NCBI RefSeq assembly: GCF_030867145.1
Contig: NC_134429.1
Span: forward strand, 21,065,115-21,129,114
Length of the DNA: 64,000 nucleotides
Reading direction: 5' to 3'
DNA from: Opisthocomus hoazin
Lineage: Eukaryota > Chordata > Aves > Opisthocomiformes > Opisthocomidae
The notes beneath the pieces were generated by a model. The model saw nothing but the letters and a program-made list of their open reading frames with translations, was not told the origin of the DNA and ran no database searches. Both the position numbers and the translations under genes were made by a program. Below, in pieces: positions 5,211-62,854 of the stretch; the stretch's first letter is position 1; each line of letters starts with the position of its first letter.

Positions 5211-5655
5211 CACAGAATCACAGAATAGTAGGGGTTGGAAGGGACCTCTGTGGGTCATCTAGTCCAACCCCCCTGCTGAAGCAGGGTCACCCAGAGCAGG
5301 CTGCACAGGATCTTGTCCAGGCGGGGCTGGAATATCTCCAGAGAAGGAGACTCCACAGCCTCCCTGGGCAGCATGGGCCAGGGCTCCGTCACCCTCAGAA
5401 GGAAGAAGTTCTTCCTCATGTTCAGACGGAACTTCCTGTGCCTCAGTTTGTGCCCATTGCCCCTTGTCCTGTCGCTGGGCACCACTGAAAAGAGCTTGGC
5501 CCCATCCTCCTGACACCCACCCTGCAGATATTTATAAGCATTTATTAAGTCCCCTCGCAGCCTTCTCTTCTTCAGGCTGAACAAGCCCAGCTCCCTCAGC
5601 CTCTCCTCGTAGCAGAGATGTTCCAGTCCCCTCATCATCCTTGTAGCCGTTGTAG
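5211..5655 (-). mobile_element. CR1 LINE, 5'-truncated, minus orientation
   Basis: On the plus strand the element begins with cacagaatcacagaat, the reverse complement of the terminal octamer repeats of avian CR1. It continues with the typical conserved 3' segment (ggaagggacctctgtgggtc, gtccaaccccc). The minus strand from 5638 to 5255 keeps an open frame for the last 127 residues of the reverse-transcriptase ORF, with the usual tail motifs [24 protein letters not shown] and ESPSLEIF. It is 5'-truncated, as nearly all avian CR1 copies are, and sits in MEGF6 intron 3 in the same orientation as the gene. It looks fairly young because its ORF tail is uninterrupted. Confidence 0.95.
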
Positions 5656-20426: not shown

Positions 20427-24650
<4,224 letters not shown>

Positions 24651-26310: not shown

Positions 26311-26551
26311 TTTAACAGTAAATGACTTGCTAGAAAGTATCTTACTGATATATCTACTTCTGCTACAATATTTCATTCTCATGCACCAGAAAAATCTGTT
26401 GTCTTACAAGATTAGATAGAAGCTGTGCTGTTGTGTGCAAAGAACTGTTTAATAGCTACACAGTCACATCACTGATCCTACAGAAACAGACTTTAGAAGG
26501 GAGAAGTGCAGGTTTATAATTAGTCAGAACAAGTTTGTAACTATCAAAATA

Positions 26552-26557
26552 TTTATT
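26552..26557 (-). terminator. WRAP73: Candidate WRAP73 polyadenylation signal
   Basis: Plus-strand tttatt reads AATAAA on the minus strand, about 330 nt after the WRAP73 stop. It would leave a few hundred bases between the convergent TPRG1L and WRAP73 transcripts. Confidence 0.5.
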
Positions 26558-26883
26558 GGCAGTTATAAAAATTAAATAATAGCTATACATTATATACACA
26601 CAGCTACAGTTTTAGAAAATAAGGTTTCATAGTTGAAAAAGATCAAGAGAAAGTTCAACTACATCAATACTAAAGCTTTCTTGAAATCCGGGCTTCATTC
26701 TCTACGCTTTAGTTGCTACATCACTTCATTCAAATGCACTCACGGTACTTTACACACACGAGTTTGGTTACGGCCCTTCAAATAAATACTTAATAAATAC
26801 AAAAACTTCAGACTGGGCAACAGGATTTGACCCCTTTCCTCACTCTTCCTCAAACTTGCGAGCGTTTTTAATGCAAATGATTG
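26558..26883 (-). other. WRAP73: WRAP73 3' UTR
   Basis: AT-rich non-coding sequence between the WRAP73 stop codon and the candidate polyadenylation signal. No other feature seen. Confidence 0.55.
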
Positions 26884-26993
26884 TTATTTTACCTCTTCTC
26901 TTTCCAAGTAACACACACAAAAGTTGTCCTTACTCAGAAGCGCCATGGAGTCTCCGCTGGAATGCCAGGAGAGAGACACGATCTGGAAGTCAC
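26884..26993 (-). CDS. WRAP73: WRAP73 coding exon 12 with stop
   Basis: 110 nt after acceptor ctgcag. It encodes [20 protein letters not shown] and [16 protein letters not shown], then TAA at 26886-26884. The end differs from human, which I recall continuing about ten residues further. The sequence GAG|GTAAAA five codons before the end of the frame could act as a donor to a further exon; I prefer the simple stop. Confidence 0.88.
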
Positions 26994-35900: not shown

Positions 35901-38900
35901 AGAAAGCATGATACAAGTAACTGACCTGGTGCTCAAACCAGGCTTCAGAAGCCTAATAAATGCTGCCTCCCTCCAGAGCTCCGCGGAGACCCAAAGCAAA
36001 AGAGCAGCATTAGCTGTTCTCCCTACTGCTTCTTGTACACAGAAGAAAGTTTTGAGATTTGAAGAGACAACACAGAAATCAGTTGGGTGTTTCTAAATTT
36101 GTTACAGGAAAGTGCACAGCCAGGTCGGATTCCAGTCCACTTCTATCCGAAGTTAAAAAAGGTACTGGACCACTGTTTAATACAGTGTTTATTATTCTCT
36201 TTATTTTACAGGTACGAAATTACAGCGAGACATCTATAGTACCACCTTTAAATTTGGCAGGTCCTAGAGGAATCCACTAGATTAGCAACATTAATCAAGT
36301 TTTATCACTGCAACTGCTCACTTCCGGACATACAAAAATACAGCATTGTTAGTCTGCTCTGCATGCAAGATTTACTTTAAAAATACCAACACAATGCCTA
36401 CTCACATTCTTCTGTAGCAACTGCAACAGTGATATGCTGCTTGCTCCTGTTACTTGCAGTGTTAAATGTACTTGCTGCTGTTCCTCCCTCGACCAAAACA
36501 CGCAGCATACACACCACACATTCTACAGCCACTTAAAACAAGCTTAGCAGCTGCAAGCTTTGAATGCTGAGGTCTGGATCGTAATTTTTCCTGACAAAGG
36601 CATCCAAGTTTACCTTTGTGCTGCTACTCGGCCTCACAATCAACTCACCTGGCTGCTGTGCATCACGCACACTTCTACCCTGGACCACATCGCCTGGCTC
36701 AGAGCCTCAGATCAAGGCAAAGCCTTACTGCTCCCACCAAGCTCAAGTCCATCAGAAGAGGAAAAATCTCTGGAGGTGAGAAACAGCACATCACCTGCAG
36801 GGCTCTTACTGTCACCTCGGCCTTGCCTGAGGCTCCACTACAGCAGAGAAAAGGCAAGCACACCTTCATTCTGAGAAGTCTTTCTGCATCCATCTCCACG
36901 TCATCGTTGGGTGCAGTCCTCTGCTTGCTGTTCAGACAGAACCTTCTCTAAAAGGGTCAAAGTTCCGTAACTCCCCAGAGAAGACACTAATAATGGCTTC
37001 CCACTCCCCAGAGAAGAGACTAATAATGGCTTCCCTGTTCATTCTTGTCATGTTGCACTTAACTGCTGAGCATGCACTTGATCGACACCACAAGCTCCTG
37101 TAACACTGAACGCTGATATTGTTGGAGTGGTAGTGTATTGCCCCCCACACCTCCCCAACACATCACTTCTAACATATATGGCATAAACTGCCATAGTGCC
37201 ACGGCAGTGCTGGGAAGAGACTACAGAACACAACCACCACACACCCATGGGATGTTTACACCCAGTCTACAACAAGCCCACAAAAATACACCTTCAAAAC
37301 CAAAGACCTATTATTATACTGGATGCCTACAACCCTTTGATAACCAAAGCACTTCCTCTTCAGACCTCAGACTCCAAATCAATCACAACGTACCCATAAC
37401 AACTAATAAGATCCTCTACTCAACTTCGGTGTCTCTCTCCTGAAAAGGCTGCAAGCTCGTAAGGGAAGCACACAACTGCAGGTTGGAGACCACGCATATG
37501 CTCTGCCATAACTTCATTGCAACCTCTTGCCCAAATCACACAGGTTGTGGCCTAGTGTTAGAAACACGTAAAAGCAAACCATTTTGATTCCCCAAATCAG
37601 GATTTTTTTCAGTTGTTCTGTCTGCGTACACTCAAACATTTTTATGAGCTGAGAAAGTTACGTTATGGGCTTAAAATATGGACTTCACACCTATCTTACA
37701 TGGATTAACAATATGTTTACAATTAAATTGTGACAAAAAGGGAGAACCTTCATATTCCCAGCTGGAACTAAAACATTATTCAACAATCCTGCCCAAGTTG
37801 TCAACATAAACTAGCCCAAGAAAAATTCCTCCACAGCCAGCAGATATGATTACGAGAGACAGAAACATAAAATGCACAGACGGTGAAAAAACAAAGCGAA
37901 ACACTTCAAAAATCACAATAAACTGCATTGTTCTTTTTTGCTTTTCTCAGAGACTTTGTGGCAAAGGGACAACTGCTTTTACAGCAGGAGAATAGATCAT
38001 GGTCAATCAAGTCTGCAGCAAGCACTCCTTTTTCACTGGTCATTTTGAGGGGTACTTTCTCTTTAGTGTAGGTGACTCGATTAAGTGGAGTTGTCAAACT
38101 CAAATCTTAATGATAATTCTGTCTGAGAAGTTTTCAGCTGTTGTTTTGCAGTGGAAAAACAAACCAAAAGCAGAAGCATTTTTAAAATAGCCTAAAAACA
38201 GCTGAGAAATAAAAAGTATTTAGATGGTAACGTGATAAACAGTCTCCAGTGCTGGGTTCAGGACTACGTCCCAACGTTGACAGCTACAGGCAGGTGTAAG
38301 ACTGGTGATTTTCAATAGATAAAAACACACTTTTAAACAACCTGGCATCTCAAATGACTGTCAACTTTTGTCCCAGACTTGACTGGGTCACAAGGCCTCT
38401 TTACATAGCAGTGTCTGTCAGCACCGGATTTCAGAAGATTATTCAGAGCACATTCCTCGACAGAAAGCATTTTTCAACCAACGTAGCCATTTACAGTTAC
38501 TAAGGATTAGCTCCAATACACACAGAAACACACGCTTTTTTTCCCCTGCTGCTGTAGTTCGAAAGAAGCTCCTTAATGCCTCCATACCTAACATGGAACT
38601 AGAGAAAGTATCTTCAAAGTTTCCTAAAAGAAACACTCAAGCACAATGCTGCTGATCTTCACACTATTTATCACCAAAAATGAGAATCACAAGGAAGCAG
38701 AGGATCCATTTGCTTTCTCTACACCTTTTAACCGCAGCTCTTGCTTAAGCTCTACATGTGCCCATGAACTCGAGTGGAACGATGGCACTGTAAGAGGAGA
38801 GATACCCAGTACAACACCTTCCACAGGACAAACTGACAACGTGGGATTTTCTAGCAAGCAGCTTGCTGTGCTACACACAGCAGGCATGCAGAACTGCCTC

Positions 38901-41900
38901 ACAGAGCAGGTTTTGGCAGGAGAGGAAGAACCTACTACAAAAGAAGTAACAAACGATAGCAATGGGACAAGCTGCTTTCCTGTGCACTGCGTGAATCAGT
39001 ATAATTAACGTGGTGTTCCAACTTTTTCAGATTCTAGACAGACTTCGCACAGCAGGCTTTCAAAATGTATTTTTCCAACTAATTGAGCTTTGCTCTCGGT
39101 TAGTGAAATGAGAAAGCACTGCCTCAGTTCCACCCCCCCCCAAAAAAAAACCCCAGCTTTTCCTAACAGAACTGTACTCTAGCTTGGTATAAACAACAAG
39201 GTGATGAAAAATCAAGTTGCAACTATTCTGACCACTTCTCACATGTACCTGTAAGATATAAGCGGACAATTAAAGCAAAAAAAAAAAGCCTTCCAAGTTT
39301 GGAACTACCTTTGAATACATCCAGCTGCCCAGTAAAACTAGGTTTTGCCTGGCAAAACCAAGCAAGTCTGTATCTCACCGTGCAGTTTGCCAGTCTGGAC
39401 AGCAGCGCTGACAGTCTCCAACAGCAGGCAATCCTCCAACCCAGCCCAGCAAGATTTGAGGAACAAGCCTACATCTTTTCTACATCTCTGCAGGACTGCC
39501 ATCCCAGATGCTGGCAGAATGACCCCTCCACACATAACACTTCAGCTAACATACAGCACAAAGATGCTTTCAAAAATCTCAGGCAAGTAACTAGGTACCA
39601 CACACATTTTTGTAATTAAGCACAGCAAATTCTCTGCATCTGCCAGTGATCCACTATCAAGTGAAAGGACAGAGTCTCTACACACTTTCTCTGATAAGAC
39701 TGTGTCGTTTAGTTCCCTTGTATACCATGCTGTTTATTGCAGTAACCGTGTAAAGGTTTAGACAGGTACCTCTGCCATCCAATATTACTGCACATTGTGT
39801 AACAACTCTTGGACCCAAAAAACCTGCCCATTATTACAGACTCTTCTCCAATAAAATGATCATATTTGCAGAGTTATGTTAATATTAAGCACGTATGAAG
39901 CATTGCTGCCGATCTCAAAAGACCAGAGTCAAAATGGGATTTTGGAAACGTGGGTCAGAATTCTGCTGCACTCATCTCAAATTAGGAACTGCACACCAGT
40001 CACATCAAAAAACCCACAACATTATTCACTATAATGCTGACCACAAAAAGAACTTGACTGCAAGTTAGCTGGCGAATAATTTTTCTGAGGCACTAGTAAC
40101 TATGGATTGCTAGAAATAAATTAGCACAACCATATCCATTAAAAAAATCTAGGAATAAGAAAGTTATTTGTGAGCTTACAGTGGAGCTCACGTGTTGACC
40201 TGAAGAATTACAAGCACGAGTAATTAGTTGATGCCATTTGAGAAAGTCACACTACCACAGCCAAGCTGCACTGGCTGACAAGGAAGCTCTGAGCCCTCCA
40301 AGCAATCGCTGAATTCGATAACGTACATAATACACCACTATTAAGTATCCTGACAGTTTCTGTCTCAAGCACTGCTCACGCCTGTCCCACCAGACCATGG
40401 ATTTAGCAGAGCGAGAGTAAACACAACTCAGACATCGGCATAACCCAGGCAGCTGTCTGACAAAAGCTAATTTAGCAACCTGTTTACAGCTGGAAAGAAA
40501 ACTTATCCCAACACAGATGCCAACTTGGCAAAGGCTTAATGAAATCCTCTAAGGTCAAACCAAGTTCTGTTGGGAGGCAATAAATACTTGCTAGTCCACC
40601 CCCACACACACGTGCCACGAGATACTCGCTGGCAGCACACAGCACCAGCCCTCAGTTTGGGTTACTGACTGGCAGGCATGTCTCTTCCGACTTCAGGTTG
40701 AAATTTTAGAGCCTTTTTTTTATTTTAATAGCCACCAGGGTGATTCATTCCTGGGAAAACTAAGGCCCAAATCCATAACCCCTCGTAACTCACTATCTAG
40801 AGGGGAAGGGGAATGGAAAGAGACTGCTTTATAGCCAGAAAATCTCTACCCCAGTCAGCACTAAAACTCCTTGCCAGCACTAAACATCCTTGCCAGAGAA
40901 TTCCCCCATGCGTGCATCAGGAACTACACCATAGCTGTGCGCAGGTTTCTCCACGGGTTCCCTTGAGAGCAAAGGATTTGCACTAACTCCAGTCCGCACA
41001 CACAGATTATAAAATCCCTCGTCTATATTCCACCAACATTGGTATTTGCAGGAAAAAAGGAAGAATCCTGCAGTGTAACATTTGAATTCAGTGCTAGTGA
41101 GGGTTATGACACAATAACCCGTCATCGAAAATCCATCTACAGCTTTGATAAGGGTAAATAAAGCACAGAGAAAGATGTCTTGCAGGTAGTTCTTAGCTAT
41201 TTGCTGATCGTTCATCGAATTCTCAGCTCTAATCCAGAGACTGGGAAGGTGGAGAGTCAGACTTCCACACGCCTTCCAACAAGCCCAGTGCCCAGCATCC
41301 ACAATCCCATCCGGATTCCAGAATATGGTTCTTAACCAGTAAGCACTTGCACGTGTTTTAATTTTCATGTTGCAAGTGGTTCTATCAACAGCAGTCTTAC
41401 TCCCATGTGTAAAATGAAACAATTATGAAAGTATTTTCAGGATCTGGATGTAAATCTCATCCCATAGGTCAACAAACCTAAGCCCATATTTTCTAATTCC
41501 ATAGCCGCTCTTAAATGTTTATGGCTGGGGGTTTGGTTTTTTTTTCCGCTAGAAACCCTGAGCCTTCCCTGAGCTACAAGCAACACAGTTGATTTCCAAA
41601 ATTGCTTCGATGAACGCCAGTGAGCCCTACACTTTTCTCAAACACATAACTGTACCTTCGAAGCTAAGTGTCCATTTTCTATCTTGTCATCAGAAGCAAG
41701 AGGATAAAATGTTAACAGAAAACTAACATCTAAACCGGAATTAGCCTAGATCACACAGATGAATATAAGACAACCATATCCGCATTCTTTACCACCACTA
41801 CAGCTTTAAGAGCTTTAGGTTATTTTAAGAGGCAAAGGGCAGACAGTAACATCTGATACCCCCGAGAGCAATCGTGACTTCACACTTACATGGAACTCGG

Positions 41901-43363
41901 TCGTGTTGAGAATGTGACGACCATCCGGACTCCAGCATGAAGCCACCAATCCTGCTGAGCCCTCGTCTATCTTGCAGTGCCAGTCCGGCTGCTCCAGGGA
42001 CCAGACCTCGGTCAGAGAGGAAAGCAAACCGACAGTGCAGGAACAAACAGCTCCCCGAAACCTCTGCTCCAGCCGAGGAAGGGCTCCCGCACCACATACC
42101 AGAGAGCTCAGGAGATCACTGAACGCCCGTGGCCATGAAGGACTGGCGCTGGATCCCACTACAAAAGTAAGCCCTGCATCTCCGTGTATTAATACACATT
42201 GTAAAGTAAGGTTTTGGTTTTTTTTTTTCCTGTGACGAATATTCTGAACATCCAACACTTAAAAGTTTTCATTCATTTAATGAGTTTGCATGTATTTACT
42301 TTCTACTGCACTAAGAAACTGGTAAGGTAATCTCCAATTTTGATTTGTTTTGATAAATATTTTCATTCTAAATTTGGGTTTGTTTTTTTTTTCAAACTAA
42401 GATGTTTGTCATGGTTTTAAAAACAACGGCATGCTGGGCTACCCTCACACCATGCGTTATCAATAACAACGTCAGCTACGTTAGCAAAAGCACTGAACTA
42501 GTGCTCTCCCTCGGGCCACCCACGAATCCCCAGCGGGAGACACACGCTGCCCTGCCGCTGGCCTTACCTGCACCACCCCACGCTTGTACATGGCGCAGAG
42601 TATGAACAGGGAGTCGGACGACCACTCGACATACTGGATCTGGTCCAGGCAGGTGTACAGCTGGAGCAGCTGCAGGGTGCTCGCGTCCCGAACCACCAAG
42701 CGGTACTGCACGCACGAAGCCTGCGCCGCAACGAAACCGGAGCTGAGCTGGTGCTGGGCTCCAGCCACGGCCATAATGAAACCGGAGCTTAGCCGGTGCC
42801 GGGCTGCAGCCCTAGCCTGACGAACCGGCGTGCTGCCGTTGCCCAGGTGCGCTGCGGGCGCAAGCAGGAATTTTAATTTCAGCAGGGCTTGATGAGGCTG
42901 TGCTCTGCTGCGAGCGGCGGCAGAAACAGTTAAACCGGAGGCGACGGGGGGGTTATATTGACAAACCCAATCCCCACTCGTTCCAGCACCGCTAGTTAAC
43001 CCGTTAACCAGTTCTGCTCTTAAAAAACCATTATTCTTTGCCTCGTAACTGTGATTTAACGAACCGTCACCCGGTCGCCGCCGCACAGAGCCGCGCTGGC
43101 GAACAGCCCCGCCGCACGCCGGCGGCTCGGTGCCCGCAGCACCGACCAGGCCCCCGCCCCGGGGAAAGGCCGCTGCCGGGCTGCGGCCTGGCCCGCCCCG
43201 CGCTGCCGCCGGGCGCTCGGCCCCGCCGGTCCCCTCGGGCCGCGGGCGGGCGGGAGCGGCCCCGGCGCGACGCGCCCCGCCAGCCGCCACTCACCAGGCA
43301 CCGGCCGTCGGGAGAGAACCTGCCGAGCAGGCCGGAGAGCTTGAAGAGCTCCGAGAAGTTCAT
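26884..43363 (-). CDS. WRAP73: WRAP73 (WDR8) WD-repeat protein, complete, twelve coding exons
   Basis: WRAP73 is a centrosomal WD-repeat protein that acts with SSX2IP in centriolar satellites, spindle anchoring and cilium assembly. The twelve exons (69, 153, 117, 73, 104, 87, 135, 78, 106, 126, 192 and 110 nt) sum to 1350 nt, or 449 aa, against about 460 in human. Every junction is GT-AG and in phase. Recognisable blocks in order: [198 protein letters not shown]; and [14 protein letters not shown]. The WD-type W-D/S-P pairs indicate beta-propeller blades. It runs opposite to TP73, as in mammals. Intron 3 is long at 7.3 kb. Confidence 0.97.
26994..27926 (-). other. WRAP73: WRAP73 intron 11
   Basis: 933 bp; no other feature seen. 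Confidence 0.88.
27927..28118 (-). CDS. WRAP73: WRAP73 coding exon 11
   Basis: 192 nt, acceptor tctgacag, donor GTAAGG. It encodes [55 protein letters not shown] and VAVQVPVEG. Two WD-repeat blades are visible. Confidence 0.96.
28119..28887 (-). other. WRAP73: WRAP73 intron 10
   Basis: 769 bp; no other feature seen. Confidence 0.88.
28888..29013 (-). CDS. WRAP73: WRAP73 coding exon 10
   Basis: 126 nt, acceptor attccag, donor GTAAGT. It encodes (Y)[18 protein letters not shown], then [16 protein letters not shown] and CFLATKN. The first tyrosine codon is completed by the last T of exon 9. Confidence 0.95.
29014..29892 (-). other. WRAP73: WRAP73 intron 9
   Basis: 879 bp with a poly-T tract near 29572-29586 (plus strand). 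No other feature seen. Confidence 0.88.
29893..29998 (-). CDS. WRAP73: WRAP73 coding exon 9 (variable linker)
   Basis: 106 nt, acceptor ctttgtag, donor GTAAGC. It encodes [20 protein letters not shown] and [15 protein letters not shown], plus one base of the next tyrosine. It matches the start (YKEAEKSP) and LSFPP core of the human linker exon but is otherwise poorly conserved, so it is easy to miss in homology searches. Phases on both sides require it. Confidence 0.9.
29999..31352 (-). other. WRAP73: WRAP73 intron 8
   Basis: 1354 bp; no other feature seen. Confidence 0.85.
31353..31430 (-). CDS. WRAP73: WRAP73 coding exon 8
   Basis: 78 nt, acceptor gaattag, donor GTGAGT. It encodes [20 protein letters not shown] and IANTKT, matching the human segment [18 protein letters not shown]. 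Phase 0 at both ends. Confidence 0.95.
31431..31534 (-). other. WRAP73: WRAP73 intron 7 (short)
   Basis: 104-bp intron, the shortest in this gene, with donor GTAAGA and acceptor TAG. Confidence 0.9.
31535..31669 (-). CDS. WRAP73: WRAP73 coding exon 7
   Basis: 135 nt, acceptor tttcag, donor GTAAGA. It encodes [36 protein letters not shown] and LAIGSYDEK, a canonical WD-repeat blade. Phase 0 at both ends. Confidence 0.97.
31670..32524 (-). other. WRAP73: WRAP73 intron 6
   Basis: 855 bp; contains a probable old CR1/L3-like remnant near 31.88-31.99 kb. Confidence 0.85.
31878..31990. mobile_element. Possible ancient CR1/L3-like remnant
   Basis: The strings gcccacccagcccaatgctc and agcagatgccattagggaag resemble a highly diverged amniote CR1/L3-like repeat (typical ccagatgctttagggaagg core). 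Only a profile search would settle this. Confidence 0.35.
32525..32611 (-). CDS. WRAP73: WRAP73 coding exon 6
   Basis: 87 nt, acceptor gggggcag, donor GTACGA. It encodes [20 protein letters not shown] and LAVWDTCLE, matching human [18 protein letters not shown]. Phase 0. Confidence 0.96.
32612..33474 (-). other. WRAP73: WRAP73 intron 5
   Basis: 863 bp; no other feature seen. Confidence 0.88.
33475..33578 (-). CDS. WRAP73: WRAP73 coding exon 5
   Basis: 104 nt, acceptor tttgacag preceded by a long T run, donor GTAAGA. It encodes (G)[17 protein letters not shown] and [17 protein letters not shown], nearly identical to mammalian WRAP73. Confidence 0.96.
33579..34477 (-). other. WRAP73: WRAP73 intron 4
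   Basis: 899 bp with a 17-bp A run (plus strand) at 33592-33608, which forms the poly-T tract of the exon 5 acceptor. No other feature seen. Confidence 0.88.
34478..34550 (-). CDS. WRAP73: WRAP73 coding exon 4
   Basis: 73 nt, acceptor gacag, donor GTAAGT. It encodes [20 protein letters not shown] and ACQQ plus one base. It matches human exactly except that the final LQ is QQ. Too short for a simple ORF scan; placed from the phase-0 end of exon 3 and phase-1 start of exon 5. Confidence 0.95.
34551..41889 (-). other. WRAP73: WRAP73 intron 3 (7.3 kb)
   Basis: The longest intron of the gene. It is AT-richer than its surroundings and holds a 33-bp tandem duplication at 36970-37035 and short low-complexity runs (39132-39151). 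No exon, RNA gene or clear transposon recognised on either strand. Confidence 0.85.
36970..37035. repeat. 33-bp tandem duplication
   Basis: Two consecutive copies starting actccccagagaaga and ending taatggcttccc, with one difference. Located in WRAP73 intron 3. Confidence 0.9.
41890..42006 (-). CDS. WRAP73: WRAP73 coding exon 3
   Basis: 117 nt, acceptor ctgaccgag (an AG preceded by G, with a good pyrimidine tract), donor GTAAGT. It encodes [20 protein letters not shown] and [19 protein letters not shown]. Phase 0 at both ends. Confidence 0.96.
42007..42567 (-). other. WRAP73: WRAP73 intron 2
   Basis: 561 bp; no other feature seen. Confidence 0.9.
42568..42720 (-). CDS. WRAP73: WRAP73 coding exon 2
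   Basis: 153 nt, acceptor ggcgcag with an unusually weak pyrimidine tract, donor GTAAGG. It encodes [40 protein letters not shown] and [11 protein letters not shown]. Phase 0 at both ends. A 45-bp intronic duplication lies directly at its acceptor. Confidence 0.96.
42721..43294 (-). other. WRAP73: WRAP73 intron 1
   Basis: 574-bp GC-rich intron. In the reading frame of exon 2 it is open for about 190 codons up to the exon 1 donor, but no ATG opens that frame, and the intron length (1 mod 3) puts it out of frame with exon 1. Confidence 0.88.
42730..42819. repeat. 45-bp tandem duplication at exon 2 acceptor of WRAP73
   Basis: Two copies of a 45-bp unit, starting at 42730 (aacgaaaccggagctgagct) and 42775 (aatgaaaccggagcttagcc), with several mismatches. 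The proximal copy begins 10 bp from the exon 2 acceptor and so supplies its pyrimidine tract and probably its branch point. Confidence 0.85.
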
Positions 43364-43762: not shown

Positions 43763-44324
43763 AGAGCAGCGGGACCGCGGGCGGGCTGTCGCGGGAGGTT
43801 CCCCGCCTGGGACGGAGCAAAGCTGCCAAGTGCAATGGCAGCGCACCGCCAAACTGGACACCGGCGTGATGGGAATAAATCAATAATCAATAAAGCTCTG
43901 TGGGGAGAGCGGCCGGCGAAGGGCGAGGAGCCCGGCCAGCCCTCCCGGGGCCCACAGCCCCTCAGGGGTCCCGCAGCCCCCCGCCCCACTGCTATGGGGA
44001 GCAGAGGAGCCAGCTGCGGGGACCGAGGGCCGTGGCGGGGACAGCTGCGTCCCAAAAGCGGCTCCATCTGTCAGGCACCGAGCACAAAGGCCTCGGAGGC
44101 CTCGGCGTGGGGTGGGCAGCAGCCTGGCAGCGTGTGGGACCCCCACCTCCCCGCCCGGAAAACGGGCAGCCCCCGCCATCTGAAAAATAAAGCTCGGGAT
44201 CAGAGCAGGCGTTTGGATCTTGCTTTCGTTACGGATCGGGCATTTGGGCCCCCAAAATGGGTCACAGTAACTCTGGTGTGTCTGGGGGCTGGTAAATGCG
44301 TCTGCGTTCTGGCCCTACGCGTGA

Positions 44325-44822
44325 CGAGGGGACAGACCCTGACTACGAGGGGACAGACCCTGATGATGAAGGGACAGACTCTGATAGACAACGAGGGGAC
44401 AGACCCTGATGATGAGGGGACAGACCCTGATAGAAAATGAGGGGTCAGACCCTGACAGACAACGAGGGGACAGACCCTGACGATAAGGGGACAGACGCTG
44501 ACAGAAGACGAGGGGACAGACCCTGACGACGAGGGAACAGACCCTGATAGAAAATGGGGGGACAGACCCTGATAGACAACGAGGGGACAGACCTTGACAA
44601 GGGGGCAGACCCTGATGATGAAGGGACAGACCCTGACAGACAACGAGGGGACAGACCCTGAAAATGAGGGGACAGTCCCTGATAGACAACGAGGGGACAG
44701 ACCCTGACAGACGACGAGGGGACAGACCCTGATGATGAGGGGACAGTCCCTGACAGAAAATAAAGGAAGAGACCCTGATGATGAGGGGACAGACCCGGAT
44801 GACGAGGGGACAGACCCTGACG
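44325..44822. repeat. Degenerate minisatellite (gaggggacagaccctga units)
   Basis: About 20 copies of a core gaggggacagaccctga separated by short variable spacers (tgatga, tagacaac, cagacgac), giving irregular periods of roughly 15-30 bp. The minus strand is open in all three frames across it, so any predicted serine/valine-rich protein here is a repeat artefact. Confidence 0.93.
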
Positions 44823-50798: not shown

Positions 50799-50835
50799 AG
50801 TGATTTATCCTCTGTCGGAGTCCCCCTCTGTGAAG
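50799..50835 (+). other. TP73: TP73 exon 2, 5' UTR part
   Basis: Short untranslated start of exon 2 after acceptor gcccctag. The 5' end could instead be 50801, since a second AG follows. The last bases (cggagtccccctctgtgaag) align loosely with the human sequence before ATGGCCCAG. Confidence 0.6.
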
Positions 50836-50894
50836 ATGTCCCAGTCGTCTCCAGCCGATGAAGGCACAACGTTTGAGCACCTCTGGAGCACGCT
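50836..50894 (+). CDS. TP73: TP73 coding exon 2 (TA start, activation domain)
   Basis: 59 nt from the TA initiator ATG (gaagATGt, A at -3) to donor GTAAGT. It encodes [19 protein letters not shown] plus two bases of leucine. It contains the complete F-x3-W-x2-L helix core that binds MDM2 and p300-type partners in the p53 family. Confidence 0.96.
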
Positions 50895-53800
50895 GTAAGT
50901 GGTGGCTGATGCTCTGCCTTGCGGTGTATTCTGAGGCAGAACTGGCTCTTTCTCTGTCATCTGTGTTAGCACACAGCGTTAGCATGGCCCAAAGGTAGAG
51001 AAGTTTCTTTCACATGCTCCACCTCTCCTGTACTCCTTTTCCACATTCAGAATTTTGCTCCCAGACTCCGATCTCTCTGCTCAGATCATTTCTTTTGCCA
51101 AACCCCTTTGCTCTGGTGATGCTGGGCAGCTCAAAGACTGCGGAGTTTGCAGACGCTGAAAGCAGGGCCCCACAAACCTTGTTTCAAGGCGTTGGATGCT
51201 GCTTCTGAAGCGGGTTGTGTGGCTGCCAGAGTTTTCAACGTGCATGATAAATGCCAGGGCAGGAGAGCTGCAAAGCACGGCGCAGCGTTCCCGCAGCGCG
51301 GTGCCCTCGTGCAGTTGGAGGTCGGCATCGGGGCGCGACTCCTCTCGCTCGAGGAAGCAAAGGTGTTCGGGGAGCAGAAACGCCTCCGCAGCAGCTGGGA
51401 CGGGAGGCACTGACTCGTCCCCGTGGGCAGAGGAGAGCAGCCGGGCCGTGTCCCCCGTGCCCGGCATGCTGAGGAGCCCACCGCCCGCGGCAGCGCCCGG
51501 GGCCCTGCCCGTGTCCCCGTGGGCAGAGCAGGGCTGCAGAGAGTGCAAGCACCAACACACGCGGCTGGTTTTCCTCAACCATGGTCCTCAGAGCTGGCGT
51601 TGGTAGGTGACACCATCTGCCTCGGTGCAGGGCCACGTGGAGATGCTGTCAGGGCCAAGGCAAAGGTCCCCTTTCAGCTGGGACGCTTGCCTGTGTTGTG
51701 GCAGGGGACGCTGGGACCAAGCCTGGGAGGATGCGCTCTTACCCGTCAGCCTCCACTCATGAGGTCACGAGGCTTGGCTGCCTAATTAAAATGGGTGTTT
51801 TCTAAAATTAAACATCTCCCTGTCACACTCAGACTTTTGCAAGTCTTCTGGCCTTTGAGCCTCATGGTCTGATCAAGCAAGGCCTGTGCTTCATCTCATC
51901 CTCTTTCTTCCCTGGCCTCCTCTCACTTAAAGCCACCCCAAGGTGACGGATATGCTAGAGGAGCTGGGTGGATGAGAACTCCCCGTCTCTGCTTGCTTTA
52001 CCCGCCAGGCAACAGTTTGCCTGAGCAAAGCCCACTCTGCCACGTGAAAATAGAAGCAGAGGATGGAGGGAGAGGTTGAGAAGGGGACAAGGTTCAAGGG
52101 ACTCGCAGGTTGCTGGGTGGTGGTGGCGCAGGCTGCGCTGGAGAGCTGGAGGGCTGACGGTCTGCCATCGCCTCTTCCACAGGGAGCCAGACAGCACCTA
52201 CTTCGACCTCCCCCCGCCCAACCACACAGGCAGCAATGAGGTCTCCAACCGCACAGAGGTCACGATGGACGTCTTCCAGATGAGGAGCATGGACGACTCG
52301 GTCATGGTGAGTGTGCTCGGGCTGCACGCGTGGGAGCTGCGTCGAACCCAAACTTCTTTTCCCTGCGGAGGGCTGGGGGCTCTGTGGTGGGGACTGGGAC
52401 GCTCGCTGGTGCGTACACCGAACACGGGCACTCCAGGGGCAGTGCTGCTGCCGTTTGTGCGGGGTCTGATGCCCTGTGCTCGATGGCTGCGCTGCGGGAC
52501 TGCAGCCGGGTGGTGCAGCCGTCCATAAATGGTGGCTACTTATTAATAATAACATTGCTGCGTGCAGCAGCAGGGGCTCCAGGCTGTAACGGCGATGGAG
52601 CTCGAGGTCCTCGACAAGAGGAGAGTAGAATTTGCTCTGCTATAAACACGCTGCGTAGTAAAAGCTGTTTGTGAGCTGCTGGCGAGGCAGAGCTGCTAGA
52701 GGGGAACACTGCGGTCCCGGCGCCCAGCTCTGCTCCCACCGCGGTCCCCGAGGGTCCGTGCCGTTGCTGTAGGCACTGCTCTCCAAGAAGCTGGTGCGTC
52801 TCCGTCTAAGGCAAAGGGTTTGAAAAGCGTAGCGGGCGTGCGAGACGCCCGGCTCGCCTGTGCGTGTTCAGTGCCCGGAGCAGGGCGGCCTCCTGGGAGC
52901 ATCCCCGAAGCAGCGCCGGCCGCTGGCAGCATCTCCCTCCAGAAAGCCGCCGTTTCCCTCCTCGACAGCTTGCATCCCCTCCCCCAGCCCCTTTTTCCCT
53001 CGCTTTTCTTTTCTTTCCCTCCCTTCCCCGGGCTTTGTCTGCAGTGGGCAGCAGCCTGGCGGAGGGATCAGGCGGAGGCCACGGTGCTAATTGGGAGCTG
53101 CCCCTCGCTGCGCTTGCCGTCGCCTTTCTTGCCGTTCCGGCTGTAACCGAAGCTGAGCCCGGTGGGAATCGGTGCAGCCCGGGGTGCTGCCGGGGCTGGG
53201 TGAGCGCTGGCCTTGCAGGGCTCTGAGCACAGCAGCTGCACACAGGAGGGCAGAGCCGGCTCCTGGCCCTTGCTCGGGATAACGAGCTGGTTGTAAATAT
53301 ATACATTGGCCCGATCCTGCAACCGAGCTGAGCTCCCAGAGAGCCACGGCCAGCTCTCGCCGTCTGGCATCACCAAAACGCCTGGCGTGCTGACGTGCAT
53401 GGAAATAAATGCACAGGTAACGTGGGGCTGCCGGCCCGAAAGGCAAGACACGGGAGCTGCAGTGGAGGAGCTGCCCAGTCTGCTCTGCAACCCGGTGCTC
53501 GTGATGCTCGGCAGCGCCGGAGCGGGCGTGCGGGAAGCAGCGGGTGCTGCGGCACCCAGTGCCAGCGCTGGTGCTCGGTGGCTGCGAGCAGGCCACCCAA
53601 ACGCTCTGGGACCTGCCCTCCAGCTGCGGGTGATGCTCCGTCTCGGCGTCGCACGGATGCTGCATCGCTCCTCAAAGCCTGTGTCAGGGTCGTATGCGAG
53701 GAGGGGCTGTGATTAACGATGTGAACAACTCCTCAGCCCCCCGGAGCGGTGTTTGCTTGGAGACGGCTTCAGGGCCGGCGGGTTGGGCAGTGCTTTGGGC

Positions 53801-56800
53801 TGTGTGACGCCGCCGCTGACATCCTTGTGCCTGGGTCCGCGTGTGCGCACCAATGTTGGGAGGAGGGGGATGCACGCTGGTTCCAGCCTCGGAAATACGC
53901 CACGCTTTGAACCGCTTATCTGCTTCTGCCTGTAGCCTTCCACGGTGTGGTCTGGCTGTAGGAAACACCGTTCACCCCTCTGCCCAAGTCGGAAGGAAAT
54001 ATGCCTGGTCGCACCAGATATCCACCTATCCATATCTATCTGTCTAGATGTCTATCCATAACTGTCCCTCTAGATATCTATCTAGCCATCTCTCCCTGTC
54101 TGTCCATATCTATCCATCTAGGCGTCCACCTATCCATCTCTATCCATGGATAACTCCGTATCTCGGAGTAGCTACACCATCTGGTCGCTGCAAGAGCAGC
54201 CGCTGTGGTCTGCTGGTAAAGGGTGCCGGCCAAATGGGTTTCCACCCCAGTGAGGCTGCAAGCAGCTCTCTGGATTGGAGTCTGGCTGGGTTTGATGATG
54301 GAGCTGGACCCCCGCTCTCCCTGCAGTGGGAATGGTTGGTATCGCCCAGTCCATCACTGGGCAAGCTGGGGCCTGCCCTGTGCGTTAATGAACAGTCATG
54401 AGGGACAGAAAGGGGTGGGCCCCGTTTTGTTGTTGGATGCAGCTAGTTGACAGAACTAAGGGAGATGAAAAAAGCAAAAAAGCCAACACACAGCGGCACA
54501 CGGGTGGCCAGCGCAGCATCCCCGGCGCTGCCCGCCCCGGCTCCCAGCGCAGCATCCCCAGCGCTGCCCATCCCGGCTCCCAGCGCAGCATCCCCGGCGC
54601 TGCCCGTCCCGGCTCCCAGCGCAGCATCCCCGGCGCTGCCCATCCCGGCTCCCAGCGCAGCATCCCCAGCGCTGCCCATCCCGGCTCCCAGCGCAGCATC
54701 CCCGGCGCTGCCCACCCCGGCTCCCAGCGCAGCATCCCTGGCACTGCCCATCCCGGCTCCCAGCACAGCATCCCTGGCACTGCCTGCCCCGGCTCCCGCG
54801 CTCCCAATTCCAGCCGCCTTCCCACCCCGGCCATCCCCGCTGCCGCCCCGACCCCATGACTCCCGTGGCGGGACACTTCCCAGCGCTCCGTGAATCGCAA
54901 GACGACTAAAATGCTGTACATCAGCGACCCGATGCAGCATTATACCACGGTAGGTGCTACTCGTCATTAACGGGATTTCTCTTTCTGCTCCTTATTTGAA
55001 ATCGTCCTCCGCCGCCGAGGCAGGAGCTGGGCACGGGCTCCGGCTCTGCCTGCTGAGCCTCCGTGCCCGCCACTGCCCGGGACATGCCGAGGCTCGGTGT
55101 GGCGTGAGCCTTCCCACGGCTGCACGAAGGAGCTGCGGCTGCTCCGGCCGCGAGCCGTAACCGGTGTCAGCGTGGGATGCTGCAGGCTCGGTGGCTCGGC
55201 CGGCCGTTAACCATAACCAGTGTCAGCGTGGGATGCTGCAGCCTTGCTGGCTCGGCCGGCCGTTAACCATAACCAGTGTCAGCGTGGGATGCTGCAGCCT
55301 CGGTGGCTCGGCCGGCCGTTAACCGTAACCGGTGTCAGCGTGGGATGCTGCAGGCTCGGTGGCTCGGCCGGCCGTTAACCGTAACCGGTGTCAGCGTGAG
55401 ATGCTGCAGCCTCGGTGGCTCAGCCGGCCGTTAACCGTAACCGGTGTCAGCGTGGGATGCTGCAGCCTCGGTGGCTCGGCCGCGCGTTCCTCTCTGGCTT
55501 TGCCTGATCCGCTGCTTGCAGAGCCCAAGGTGCGGTGTAAACCTTTGGTGCGAAGCGCAGAGGCTCCCTCGCCTGCGTACGTGCCGATGGGAGGGGGGGT
55601 AGCTGGAGCATCCCTCCAAGGAGCAGCCTGTGGTGCTGAGCACCAGCAGCACCAGTTTCTCTTCCACTGGGGACCTCCTCAGCCGAGCTCACGGCACGCA
55701 CCCGGGGCCCCAGGCAGGCTTTCCTTCCCTGCTTTAGTGTCTCTGGGAGGGCAGAGCGGAGGAAATGGGACCTGTGCTTGCAGGTGATACATTTTCAGCC
55801 CCATCCTCAAGCGCTGAGCTCGCTCTCTGAGTCAGGAGGGTTTTGTGTCTGCTCTCTGGCGTTCAGAAAAGTTAGATACAGGCATGGGTGCAGGTAGAGA
55901 GCGCGGTGCGGTGCTGCGCTTCCCGACCAGAAATTACTTCATTCCTCTTTTTTTGTCATAACTGAGTTGGTGTAAAGCACGTATGAAGCAGGTTCATTTT
56001 GTGCCATAGTGCTGTCACTTGGGAGGTCATCGCTGCTGCAGTCATGAATATTTATTTATGTGTGTGTATAAACGTGTGTGCGTGTGTATTAGAGACTTAG
56101 ACACACAAGCGCTGTGTTGGGCTTGTTGACTCACATACAAACCCTCATGCTTTGGATCTGTCTTTTAAGGGAATGCTTCCAAAGTTTAGGCAATTTTTAA
56201 ACACAGGTTGGTGGCTTTCCCCCTGCACCTGACTCTGGGTGTCTCTGCCAGCGGATGTGCAGAGCCCCGGTACTGGGTGCTGCCTGCTGCTTTGTGCTGG
56301 CAGGGGGTCCCGGCGCGGGGTGGCCAGCCCGGCTTGCAGCAGTGATGCTCTGGGTCTCGTGTCTCCTTCGTGTGCGGAGAGGTGGTCGTTTTTCCCGAGG
56401 CAAGGCTCTCTCCTGTGCGGAGTCAGGGTGCTCCTCTCAGCAGGTCAGTGCCACTTTGCCCACCCATTCAGCCCTGCAGCCGCGGGCTTCGGCTGCTCCC
56501 AGCACCGCCAGCTCACAAAGCAATGCAGGGAGGAGTTTTGTGGAGTTTTTTTCTGGCCACTTCCAAGGGCCACCTCACCCCTAGCCCACCCGAGCTCGTG
56601 GGTCCCGAGCGGCAAATATTGCTGGGAGGCAAAAGGCTTCCCAGCCACTTCCCACCGCGGCAGGAGATGAGCGACCGCGGGAGCAGACGTGCCGTGCTCT
56701 GCCGGGCGGTCTGGACGTAGCCCGCTTTTCCTGAGCACACACGTACGTGTGCAAGGGCAGCACTGAAGATCGCCTCGTTTGCTCGTCAAGCGCAGAGCGC

Positions 56801-59038
56801 TTCGCTCTCCATTCATTCCTCCAAAAGGCACGTGGCTGGGTCCAGGGCGCGCGTGCAGCCCGTGCCCCGGGGCCTTCCGTTCTCCCGGGAGAGCAAAACA
56901 GCTCGGCCGTGATGCTCGTGGATTATCCCGGCTGTGGATCAGCCCTGACAAGCAGCAATCGCTTTTCTCCTTGCTGCTCTCCTCCTGTCCGACGCCTGAG
57001 CTTTGCCTTTCGAGGGTGAGCGGTGCTGCACGTCTTCCAGCCGCTGCCGCTCGCCGCCGCGGCTGCCCCGGCCCGGCAGCCCCCGCCGGGCAGGTCCCCT
57101 GCTGATGGCAACGGTGTCCCATGGGCAGTGTTAATGCCCATTTTGCTGAAGTTTCTTGTAACTTCTGCTCCAGGTGAAGCCTGGGATTGTGGAAAGCTTG
57201 GCTGGGGGTGGTTTGTCTTTGGCAGGGCTATTTCTAGAGCAACGAGAAGGAATAGAGGGGTTTACGCACATGTTTTAGGGGAGAAAACGGCTGTATGTGT
57301 AAAAGCAAGCCAGATCTTGTTCAGCATTCCTCCAGTTAGTCACAGGCTCCAACGACCTTGCGAGAGATGCAGACAACAGGAGAGCTTTCCTGGAGAAGGC
57401 TGATTGCCTTTAAACCATTATACATCGCAGACGGTTGGGTGAGGTTGGGATCCCAAGTTAAAACACGTCTCCTGATTCCTAAGCTGTGAGCCTCGCAGCC
57501 CTTCGGAGGAGACGGCAGATGGCCCAGCCTGCTGGGCTGCGGGACGGCGGTGGTCGCCTCCCAGTAGCTCCCAGTCTCCCAGAGCCGCCCCAGCCGGCGC
57601 TGGTGGCTGGAGGGGTGGTGGAGGACGGTGGGGTGACCAGCAGCAATGCAACGGCCGCTGCGCGTGGTCACCGCGGAGCCCAGGCAGCCGCCGGCAGCAC
57701 CGGGAGGGCAGCCCTCGGGCGGCTCGGGAGTTGCAGATTTCCGGGGGGAAAAAAATCCCCCTTGCTTTGAGAAACAGTTACGTCTGGGATGTATTTTTTT
57801 AAATGTTAGTCTATTTCTTTACCATAGAAAAAATGATTTTTTTGTCTGATTTTCAGATGAGAGATTAAGGTCACTTTAGCCACGCAGCTTTTGAGAACGT
57901 AGCTTTGCTTAGGCTCTGCCTGCAGGTGAGAGAGCTGCCGGCTCTTACTGGAAGTATCTGACAGTAGTTGTTCGGAAGAGGAATAAGACAAAAAACATCA
58001 TAAAAAGTGCAGATTTGGTCCAGCATGCCTGGAAGAAGAGCCAGCACATGCATAAACAGGGGCGCTTGCTCTGTGCCCTCGCTGCAGCGTGCTGCACCAC
58101 AGCTACGCGCGGCGCGGGTTTGAGGTTTTCCCCAAATTAGACCTGGATCAGCGGAGCCGCTGAAAGCAAACATCCCGGCTGGGAAAGGAATTGCACAAAC
58201 CGCCATTCAGGGCTGGCTCTGCCCGGGGGAGCGCTCCCAGAAGCGGTGTGCGTGTGTGCACGCGTGACGGGTCTGGAGAGCCGGTCGGACGCCGAGCGGT
58301 GCGGTCGCAGCGGGCGCGATGCCCTCGTCCCAGGGCCGGGCAGCTGCCCCAAGCCGCGATGCTCTGGGCGCTGGGAGCCCGGCGTCGAGCAGAGCCCGGC
58401 GTGGGACAGGGTTGTCACCCCCCACCCACAGCGGGGCATCTCCCACACCGGAGCAGAGCCCAGAAACTCCCTGGCCGGTCCCTGGCTGGCAAAAGCGTGG
58501 CTTTGCACCGCCAGGTGTGCCAGAAGCCGGGGGTCTCAGCGCCTCCGGAGAGGACGGAGCGGGTACGGGGGCTGATTGCGGTGTGTTGGCTTTACCCCTT
58601 GCACAAGCGGTGACCTGATCAAAAACCCAGGTGACCCGGCCCAGCTCTTTCTGCTGGCTTTCCCGCACGCTGGCCCTTTAAGGAGGCTGTAACAGGACAC
58701 CTGGAGCCCTGGAGAAGTGTGGCTGAGGTTTCCATGTCTCTAAACTGGCTGGTGTTTTCTTTTTTCCCTCCTCCCCTTTTCCCTTCCTCCAGTCCCAGTT
58801 CAATTTGCTGAACAACAGCATGGATCAGAGCATCGGCAGCAGAGCAGCCTCCACCAGCCCCTACAGCTCCGAGCACACCTCCAATGTCCCAACGCATTCG
58901 CCCTACTCGCAGCCCAGCTCTACCTTCGACGCCATGTCCCCAGCTCCCGTCATCCCCTCCAACACTGACTACCCCGGTCCCCACCACTTCGAGGTGACCT
59001 TCCAGCAGTCCAGCACCGCCAAGTCAGCCACCTGGACA
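50836..59038 (+). CDS. TP73: TP73, 5' coding part (TA exons 2-3, deltaN exon, exon 4), continues past right edge
   Basis: p73 is a p53-family transcription factor acting in apoptosis, neural development and the multiciliated-cell programme. Full-length TA isoforms start in exon 2. deltaN isoforms start in an alternative exon driven by an internal promoter and act as dominant-negative regulators. The window encodes 143 TA residues: the acidic transactivation segment with the MDM2-type motif F13-W17-L20 (FEHLWSTL); [12 protein letters not shown]; the second activation segment MDVFQM; then exon 4 with [53 protein letters not shown] and STAKSATWT, the beginning of the DNA-binding domain. Exon 5 (expected to start YSPLLKKLYCQ) was not found before 64000, so intron 4 exceeds 4.9 kb. 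Both TA and deltaN entries join exon 4 in phase 0. Confidence 0.97.
50895..52182 (+). other. TP73: TP73 intron 2
   Basis: 1288 bp; no exon or repeat recognised. Confidence 0.88.
52183..52306 (+). CDS. TP73: TP73 coding exon 3 (TA-specific)
   Basis: 124 nt after acceptor ttccacag, donor GTGAGT. It encodes [36 protein letters not shown] and DDSVM. The first block is nearly identical to human ([11 protein letters not shown]), the middle is diverged, and MDVF is conserved. Confidence 0.96.
52307..54358 (+). other. TP73: TP73 intron 3, part upstream of the internal promoter
   Basis: About 2 kb of mostly GC-rich intron with pyrimidine-rich tracts near 52.97-53.03 kb and a TATC-type microsatellite at 54.02-54.15 kb. 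No exon recognised. Confidence 0.8.
54017..54150. repeat. Degenerate (TATC)n-type microsatellite
   Basis: Interrupted tetranucleotide array built of atcc/atct units (tatccatatctatctgtcta and similar) over about 130 bp, roughly 200 bp upstream of the internal TP73 promoter element. Confidence 0.85.
54359..54378 (+). promoter_or_regulatory. TP73: p53/p73 response element of the internal (P2, deltaN) TP73 promoter
   Basis: GGGCAAGCTGGGGCCTGCCC consists of two abutting decamers, each with one mismatch to the p53-family half-site RRRCWWGYYY. It differs at one position (G for A at position 11) from the element I recall from the human deltaN-p73 promoter, which lies about 60-75 bp upstream of the start site and through which p53 and TAp73 induce their own inhibitor. 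The flanking sequence (ttaatgaacagtcatgaggg) also seems to resemble the human promoter, from memory. Its position before the deltaN exon is as expected. Confidence 0.8.
54379..54508 (+). promoter_or_regulatory. TP73: Probable P2 core promoter and start of deltaN 5' UTR
   Basis: By analogy with the human spacing, transcription should start near 54435. TA-rich ttaatgaac at 54386-54394 could serve as a weak TATA-like element. If so, the deltaN 5' UTR would be about 475 nt and include the 36-bp minisatellite. No direct evidence for the start site. Confidence 0.4.
54509..54796. repeat. 36-bp minisatellite, 8 copies, before the deltaN exon of TP73
   Basis: Eight units start at 54509, 54545, 54581, 54617, 54653, 54689, 54725 and 54761, exactly 36 bp apart, each of the form cagcgcagcatccc-(c/t)-(c/a/g)-g-c ... 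cccggctcc. Variation is limited to a few C/T and G/A positions. Because 36 is a multiple of three, frames stay open and encode 12-residue repeats in several registers. It ends 115 bp before the deltaN start codon. Confidence 0.97.
54911..54949 (+). CDS. TP73: TP73 alternative first coding exon of deltaN isoform (exon 3')
   Basis: 39 nt coding [13 protein letters not shown], followed by donor GTAGGT. It matches the shape and several residues of the human deltaN-specific peptide, which I recall as MLYVGDPARHLAT: same length, same phase-0 junction to exon 4. The ATG has A at -3 (taaaATG). It replaces the transactivation domain of exons 2-3, giving the inhibitory isoform. Its 5' boundary is a transcription start, not a splice site. 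Confidence 0.92.
55157..55490. repeat. 56-bp minisatellite, 6 copies
   Basis: Six units have the anchor tgtcagcgtg at 55165, 55221, 55277, 55333, 55389 and 55445, exactly 56 bp apart. Each unit includes ggccggccgttaacc, a palindrome-rich core (FseI- and HpaI-like strings), with gtaaccgg/ataaccag variants. It starts 208 bp after the deltaN exon. Confidence 0.97.
56055..56090. repeat. TG-rich microsatellite
   Basis: Interrupted (TG)n tract with TA and CG steps; intronic. Confidence 0.7.
58793..59038 (+). CDS. TP73: TP73 coding exon 4 (common; proline-rich linker and start of DNA-binding domain)
   Basis: 246 nt, 82 residues, phase 0 at both ends, acceptor cttcctccag, donor GTAAGT. It begins [20 protein letters not shown] and ends [16 protein letters not shown], very close to human p73 from PTHSPY onward. 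The second AG, 6 nt into the exon (tcccag), could serve as an alternative acceptor, removing only Ser-Gln. Confidence 0.97.
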
Positions 59039-60276: not shown

Positions 60277-62854
60277 GGGTTGCTCCCGGTGTGTCGTGGT
60301 AAGAGGGTGCAGGAGGGGACGGGCTACGGCAGCTGCCGCAGCGCAGGGTCCGTCCCTGTGAACACCAGCAGGCAGGCAGAGCTGGCGAGCCGGCAGCGAG
60401 CCGGCCGCGAGCCGGCTTTGAATGCGGCCAAATTCACGGCTGGGGAGCGGAGCAGCTTCCCTGTCCGGGCACCAGAGCTTCACAGCTTCACTGCCGAGTC
60501 GTGCTGACCAGGGGCTTGGGACCAGCACCGCGATTAAATACGACTTGCCCTCGTAGGAGCGGTTAAGTGTTCACTGTTTTCCACTGCCTTTCCTTGCGAG
60601 GTGTTGCTACAGGATGCGTTTCGTTAGGTTTTGGATGAACTGAAGGTGCTCAGGGCAGGCTGTGACTCCAGCCCACCCCTATCCCTGTTGGGGGATAACT
60701 CACAGCAGTTAAAAGCAAAGCTGCACAAGGAAAGGCGGCGTTCCCGTGCCGCAGAAGTGTCCGAATGGAAACCGAGCCCACGGTGATGCAGGGGGTCTCG
60801 TCCCGGCGTGGAGGGAGGAGGACGGGGAAGTGCCTGAAGCTCTCTTGCCGCTGTCCCCGGCTGGCGGTGCCGGGGGGAAGGCTTTGGGACGGAGCGGACA
60901 CAGCCCGGCTGGGGGCTGCGGGACCCCCCCGACAGCGCGGCGGGCAGGGCGTATTCGTGCGCATCCAGAGATGGAGAGAGCACCTAGCAAGATACTCTCT
61001 GTGCTCACTTTAATTAGTAGTAAGGAAATACCCTTCCCTCACCCCAGATGATGCACTCTGCAGCTGCAGGGACTAAACCAAAAAAGCCACTAAGGTCTTC
61101 TTGGCTGGTTGTCCCCAGAAGAGCGTAGGGAGCAGCAAGAGGCTCCCCAAGGCGGTGCCACCCAGCGAGGGACCCCGGGACAACCCCTTCCCTTGCCGGA
61201 GCCACCCCACCCGCCAGGCATCTTTCCACAACTCCAACTAAACTGAGCGTGACTGTCTCGGCATCACCCGGCGCCAACCGGGCTCCTGTAGCTGAGGTGT
61301 CCTGCGGGAGCTGGGCGAAGCAGGACAGGACCACTTCTTTCCTCAAGCCTTTGTGTGAAGGTGGCCTTTCTACGTGGGAGCAGCCAGTGCCACGTGGATG
61401 CTGTGAGAGCCCTTGGGGAGCCGCTGGACTCCAGAGATGCTCCGTGAACACACCTGGGCAGCCGTGGACACCGGCAGAGGATGGTCCCTGGGCTGGGGGC
61501 TGAGGCTGCCGAGCGTGCGGCTGCAAGGGGGGGGTCTGCGGGGAAGTGGAGGGCGGAGGAGTGAGATGCCTGGATGGGCTTTAACGCTTGGCAGGGCGGT
61601 GGGTGAGCTGTGCGTCCCCCGAAGGAGGGCTGGCTGCAGGGCTGGCACCGGGCAGCCCGCCGTTCCCCGCGCTGAAGCTGAGCCTCACGAGAACAGAAGT
61701 GAGCAGGCAGCGCCTTGCACCCTGGAAAGAGCACGAAGAGCGGTCCTGCTGCAGCGACAGCCAGATTCGCTCCGTCTCCTCCCGGCTGGTGGCTGTCCCA
61801 GCCACGCAGCTGCACGTTTGGTGCTGGAGGACAGGGCTGCTGCCTTCCTCCTGCTCCCCTCGAGGTCTGCGTAGCCACCGCCGCGCTGAGAGTCTGTCCT
61901 GGTTAAATGGGGAAAAGCAGCCAGCACAAAAACGTGCGTTATATGTTGCCAGAGAGTGAATATACAAACAGTGATGTGGGTCCCCAGTGCGGTTCCCTAC
62001 GTGAGCTGTCAGTGCGTAGGTAGCAGCATGCAGGCAAGGCTCGGAAAGCTGCGAGGAAACGCAGGCACGTGGGGAGGACTGTTAGGTGCAGAGGCCGCGG
62101 GGCTGGGGAGCGTGACGCCTGACGGCTCGGTGACGTCCAGCCACGGGCAGCCGCGTTACCCATCCCGGTGCCCGAAAGGACGCGCGTGGTTGGATTCAGC
62201 TCGGCGAAAGAAACAGCACTGCCCGTTTCATCGGCAGCTGGGGCAGCCTCGTGGCTCCCGATGCTTTAAGGTTAACGGCACCAGATAACGTAGGCCAGGC
62301 CCGCTGTGAGCGCTGGGCACAGGCTGGCCTTGCCAGGCAGCGTTTCGGGGCAGCGCGGAGCCCTCCGCCCGGAGGAAGGCTCGGCCAGACCGGCGGCTCC
62401 GAAGGCCTCCTGCAGTCTGTGGTCGGGTCACGGAGAATCCAGCCGAGGAGGGATGGACAGCTGGTGCGCGGGCAGTGCCAAGCCAAAGAGTTTGATGCGA
62501 GTCGCCTTGTCAAGCGGTTTGACGTGGCTTTTTGACACAACCATAAGCTGGGGTGGATGGAGGAGCGTAGCCCCGTAGATTCCTGTTTTTGAAGGGTTTT
62601 GACCAAACCCCTCTGTCTATTCCTCTGGGAGGTCTGGCGTTATCCGTTCTCCCGTGCTTAGGAGAGGAGGCTCCGCAGGACCCCAGGGCTCCCGGCCGAG
62701 GGCCAGTCTGGCTCTGCAGGACCTGGGCAGGCGAGCACCACCTGGGCGGGGGGAGCACGGTAGCACCGAGCCCACTGCCCTCGTGTGCAGTTCTCGTGTC
62801 CGCACTCCAAACCCTCTGTTGACAAAACAGAAGAGGCTTGGGAGGGAAATCCAA

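Follow-up and report, generated by a model that had tools for sequence, protein, structure and literature searches.

A very probable avian orthologue of the p73-responsive element of human TP73 promoter P2

The p73-responsive element in promoter P2 of human TP73 is reportedly treated in Nakagawa 2002, Grob 2001, and Kartasheva 2002. The circuit at this gene is described as a loop: deltaN-p73 is induced by both p53 and TAp73 and acts back on the two as a restraint (PMC8227208 and PMC10117100). PMC8227208 calls it analogous to the p53-MDM2 loop, and the two are alike in that a p53-family activator induces its own inhibitor; they are unlike in that MDM2 represents another gene and another inhibitor, whereas the p73 inhibitor is an isoform from the activator's own gene. 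In Table 2 of PMC6696488 (after Nakagawa et al. 2002), the human deltaNp73 element is printed as "-76 GGGCAAGCTGAGGCCTGCCC -57," its CCTG core is labeled non-canonical, and it is scored as yes for p73, no for p53, and no for p63. According to PMC3597522, p73 sits on the element in human cells by both ChIP and DNA pull-down, the element is activated by p53 and p73, and deltaN-p73alpha mRNA falls on p73 silencing, while p53 knock-down left deltaN-p73alpha unchanged in lymphoblastoid cells. In PMC8121313, p53 loss cut TAp73 but not deltaN-p73 protein, with H3K4me3 slightly down at the deltaN-p73 promoter. The initial annotation of the DNA studied here had stated that p53 and TAp73 induce human deltaN-p73 through this element; the p53 arm of that statement is disputed in print, by the "no" of PMC6696488 and by the p53 knock-down and p53-loss results.

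We examined a window, that is, a single 64-kb stretch of presumably avian DNA, in which a candidate counterpart of the human element lies within intron 3 of the TP73 gene and on the same strand (Table 1). Its letters on the + strand read GGGCAAGCTGGGGCCTGCCC, composed of the decamers GGGCAAGCTG and GGGCCTGCCC as half-sites with a spacer of 0, and its distance to the deltaN ATG is 552 bp (54911 - 54359); on both the abutting half-sites and the distance, the initial annotation agrees with the window sequence. Within the gene, the element has TA exons 2 and 3 upstream and deltaN exon 3' downstream. Exons 2 and 3, when joined by inspection, encode the beginning of the transactivation domain intact, and the reading frame continues into exon 4 from the TA exons as well as from the deltaN exon. 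In tblastn searches of the 64-kb window with a provisional human p73 sequence, exons beyond exon 4 were not found, and the rows at 20896-21462 (E 0.001, 23% identity, internal stops), 54370-54149 (E 0.1), and 61210-61245 (E 0.53) were taken as chance. An identity as TP63 was rejected: when the deltaN exon is joined to exon 4, the piece matches a provisional human deltaN-p73 sequence at 74/95 and a provisional deltaN-p63 sequence at 62/99, and the predicted gene product is p73 rather than p63. A PDB search with the same joined piece returned the p63 chain 2rmn as the best of 8 sequences (query 55-95), the p73 chains covering query 64-95 or 66-95, and Pfam gave 0 families for these 95 residues. 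Elsewhere in the window, we observed a 20-kb stretch of 39-46% GC (22001-42000) between flanks of 54-68% GC (2-kb bins), a tandem array at 44322-44820 around ACGAGGGGACAGACCCTGA, for which the unit lengths 25, 46, and 71 bp were obtained, and at 5211 what we take to be the tail of a CR1-like repeat, which would be in keeping with an avian source of the window.

Table 1. Features of the TP73 locus in the window
Feature	Coordinates	Strand	Basis
TP73 exon 2, TA start codon at 50836	50799..50894	+	tblastn with provisional human p73 sequence; borders by inspection
TP73 exon 3, remaining transactivation domain	52183..52306	+	tblastn; borders by inspection
p73-type response element, two abutting half-sites	54359..54378	+	19/20 versus human P2 element as printed in PMC6696488
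Conserved start-site block of promoter P2	54429..54467	+	37/39 versus merged human oligos (PMC3880278, PMC3689819, PMC5020693)
Predicted deltaN-p73 transcription start	54435	+	mapped from human +1 (reporter primer ending at +19)
Upstream ORF of 142 codons through the minisatellite	54465..54893	+	ATG shared with human shRNA target
Conserved deltaN 5' leader segment	54472..54491	+	17/20 versus human deltaN-p73 primer of PMC5369777
36-bp minisatellite, 8.2 copies, in predicted leader	54508..54801	+	tandem-repeat units
deltaN exon 3' coding part, GTAGGT donor	54911..54949	+	tblastn and sequence inspection
TP73 exon 4, common to TA and deltaN forms	58793..59038	+	tblastn

Set against the human element as printed in PMC6696488, the sole change among the 20 bases falls at position 11, where the window has G for the human A, a purine for a purine within the R class of the consensus, and the single-base difference given in the initial annotation is thus confirmed. 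The second-best place for the human element in the 64-kb window has 4 mismatches, and no more than 1 mismatch was attained by 0/200 64-kb Markov surrogates in each of two runs, the best surrogate in one of these runs having 2. The general p53-family site consists of two RRRCWWGYYY half-sites with a spacer of 0-13 bp, from which the window element departs twice, by a G at position 10 and by the CCTG core in its second half. Because the human and window elements have both of these departures in common, common descent fits and independent origin does not; the conserved CCTG core also fits a p73-favoring site. Copies of the 20-mer numbered 0 in viral_contigs and were found in 3 stretches of genome_contigs, all titled bacterial metagenome-assembled genomes, a count that, with about 1 expected per 257 billion bases, is uninformative on vertebrates.

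Human oligos printed in open papers served as the orthology anchors for the surrounding sequence, a comparison of one window with short oligos in which 12 human pieces were placed on the + strand of intron 3, each with 500 surrogates of the size of that intron. A human deltaNp73 promoter reporter ending at +19 has the reverse primer GTTGTTGGATTCAGCCAGTTGACAG (PMC3880278; gene strand), and its window counterpart is GTTGTTGGATGCAGCTAGTTGACAG at 54429-54453. Overlapping oligos, namely two deltaNp73 shRNA targets of PMC3689819 (one of them also in PMC5705756), a primer of PMC5020693, and an shRNA of PMC10182610, extend the human sequence to 39 bases. For three of the 12 pieces, namely the element, the start-site block (37/39), and the leader piece (17/20), 0/500 surrogates were as good, and their order along the window is the human order; over 64 kb, 2/200 surrogates were as good for the leader piece. 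A lack of alignment to the human P2 block, which the initial annotation had named as counting against its claim, is not what we found, the human P2 oligos aligning at 37/39 and 17/20. The forward primer of the PMC3597522 pull-down is intermediate (8/500; 54282-54296, gapped), and its reverse primer is weaker (45/500; 54514-54526). Seven of the 12 pieces, of which two belong to the leader and one covers the start codon, are at chance level, each being equaled by between 136 and 496 of its 500 surrogates: the -1700 forward (228), ChIP1 reverse (326), ChIP2 forward (496), and ChIP2 reverse (357) primers, the PMC4649515 leader primer (489), the PMC3689819 RT forward primer (411), and an siRNA over the ATG (136). 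One human ChIP primer overlaps the -1700 primer. In the 64-kb comparison, the ChIP1 forward primer was equaled by 173/200 surrogates, and the ATG primer of PMC5369777 fits the window best, with 5 mismatches, at 54907, its place at the true ATG (44/200 surrogates did as well). The suggestion that the element would be conserved above the flanking intron holds against the other human P2-region primers but fails against the neighboring start-site block, whose conservation is equal to its own. Together, the conserved pieces span 54359-54491 (133 bp), of which 54379-54428 (50 bp) lies outside the human comparison; the conserved block would start near 54282 if the pull-down forward primer is homologous.

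Counting back from +19, where the human reporter ends, places human +1 at a predicted 54435 in the window, and the element would therefore occupy -76 to -57, as printed for the human one. This spacing argument assumes that PMC3880278 and PMC6696488 number from one start site, and the exact agreement of coordinates itself supports a common numbering start in both papers. An equal position of this kind implies that the 76 bp have neither gained nor lost bases on balance. What the locus shares with human TP73 P2 thus comprises 19/20 bases, both departures from the p53 consensus, the position relative to the start, the location in intron 3 5' of exon 3', and a conserved start-site block downstream; it differs in one base, still a purine, and in the 294 bp of minisatellite in its predicted leader.

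With a unit length divisible by 3 and an array that is stop-free in every + frame, the upstream ORF from ATG 54465 stays open for its 142 codons and ends 17 bases 5' of the deltaN ATG, and ATG 54437 opens a second, overlapping upstream ORF of 140 codons. The ATG at 54465 is also human, an shRNA target of PMC3689819 ending in GGGAGATG. Nothing else at the locus was as unexpected as this upstream ORF in the leader, which should depress deltaN translation if the start is at 54435 and the leader is unspliced. A minisatellite unit at 54514-54526 resembles the PMC3597522 pull-down reverse primer at 12/13 bases, and there is a weak hint that the array may have grown from an ancestral leader segment. 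A second minisatellite, with a 56-bp unit, 6.1 copies, and 93% matches, lies just 3' of the deltaN exon (55144-55482). A scan of 54300-54950 for bacterial-type promoters and terminators, a method unsuited to a vertebrate promoter, recovered nothing.

By the p53 consensus alone, the site at 54359-54378 is at chance level. It matches at 18/20, with CCTG replacing CWWG in the second core, and a scan of the 64-kb window for RRRCWWGYYYRRRCWWGYYY with ≤2 mismatches recovered 3 sites against 2.85 expected, ≥3 sites being present in 56/100 shuffles. The other 2-mismatch 20-mers, at 57303-57322 and 38174-38193, are of the same chance frequency; in the 1 kb 5' of the deltaN ATG on the + strand, the element is the sole 20-mer with <5 consensus mismatches. 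These counts would suit a degenerate p53-like 20-mer without common origin with the human element, but such an account is next to impossible in view of the 19/20 identity, the equal position, and the conserved neighbors. Chance, which the consensus would not exclude, is rejected through the alignment to human oligos, and the element counts as real because of orthology, not because of a consensus match. In another reading, which we consider distinctly unlikely, the block was conserved as a core promoter and the 20 bp were kept for another factor or for architecture, with no p73 control in birds. Conservation of the element does not exceed that of the start-site block, and the core promoter as a whole could be what is under constraint; the chance-level consensus match and non-canonical second core lean the same way. 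However, the human element has both departures too and is reported as p73-responsive (PMC6696488) and p73-bound (PMC3597522), and the window differs from it just by purine for purine.

The long upstream ORFs lend themselves to another account, unlikely in our judgment, by which the output of the loop is uncoupled at translation, the minisatellite-borne ORF keeping deltaN-p73 low and the loop weak or conditional in this lineage. The two ATGs, 54437 and 54465, and the close approach of the longer ORF to the deltaN start codon speak for it; against it, an unspliced leader that begins at 54435 is a presumption, the array length may vary or depend on the assembly, and ATG 54465 is also present in human, where deltaN-p73 is made. 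Uncoupling at translation is compatible with an inherited, p73-bound feedback element, and both can hold together. A picture of this combined kind, which we regard as quite unlikely as a whole, is that the feedback element goes back to the amniote ancestor as a promoter module of fixed position and that in this lineage a coding-frame minisatellite gave the deltaN leader a long upstream ORF, such that transcription of the inhibitor was kept and its translation became separately gated.

The reading that we favor, at a probability of about 0.8, is that the element is an inherited bird-mammal orthologue of the human P2 p73-responsive element, bound by TAp73 and closing the deltaN-p73 feedback loop. 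Orthology itself is very probable, and in cis there is good support for inheritance of the feedback element. Given the 19/20 identity, the -76 to -57 position, and the 37/39 block and 17/20 leader piece in order, the cis half of the loop would most simply predate the bird-mammal split; to that extent, namely for the cis element with its position and conserved neighbors, the proposal of the initial annotation that the feedback loop was present in the bird-mammal ancestor is borne out. TAp73, made from the upstream promoter of TP73 itself, would sit as a tetramer on both half-sites and act on the transcription start ~76 bp downstream, near 54435. The resulting transcript would yield deltaN-p73 without the transactivation domain, which would block TAp73 (and p53) and so close the negative feedback loop. 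Binding, the actual start site, induction, and dominant-negative action in the window's animal are presumed by analogy with the human system.

Among the matches listed in our literature searches (titles and abstract starts, with most subscription journals outside their scope), there was no report of an avian deltaN-p73 promoter or of conservation of the element, and p73 goes unmentioned in PMC12954441, which deals with missing avian genes. The present case is, as predicted from sequence, a p73 response element of a known kind, orthologous to the human one, in a lineage without a report among those matches. Individual p53-family binding sites are generally held to turn over quickly, and the bird-mammal split is some 300 million years old. 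The comparison suggests that p73 self-inhibition, as known in humans, arose before that split, and it yields a prediction that applies directly to cells of the chick. Conservation of the non-canonical CCTG core hints at selection for a p73-favoring over a canonical p53 site. Against such quick turnover, an element kept at 19/20 and at an equal distance from the start site over this span would mark this autoregulatory step as central to p73 and not confined to mammals.
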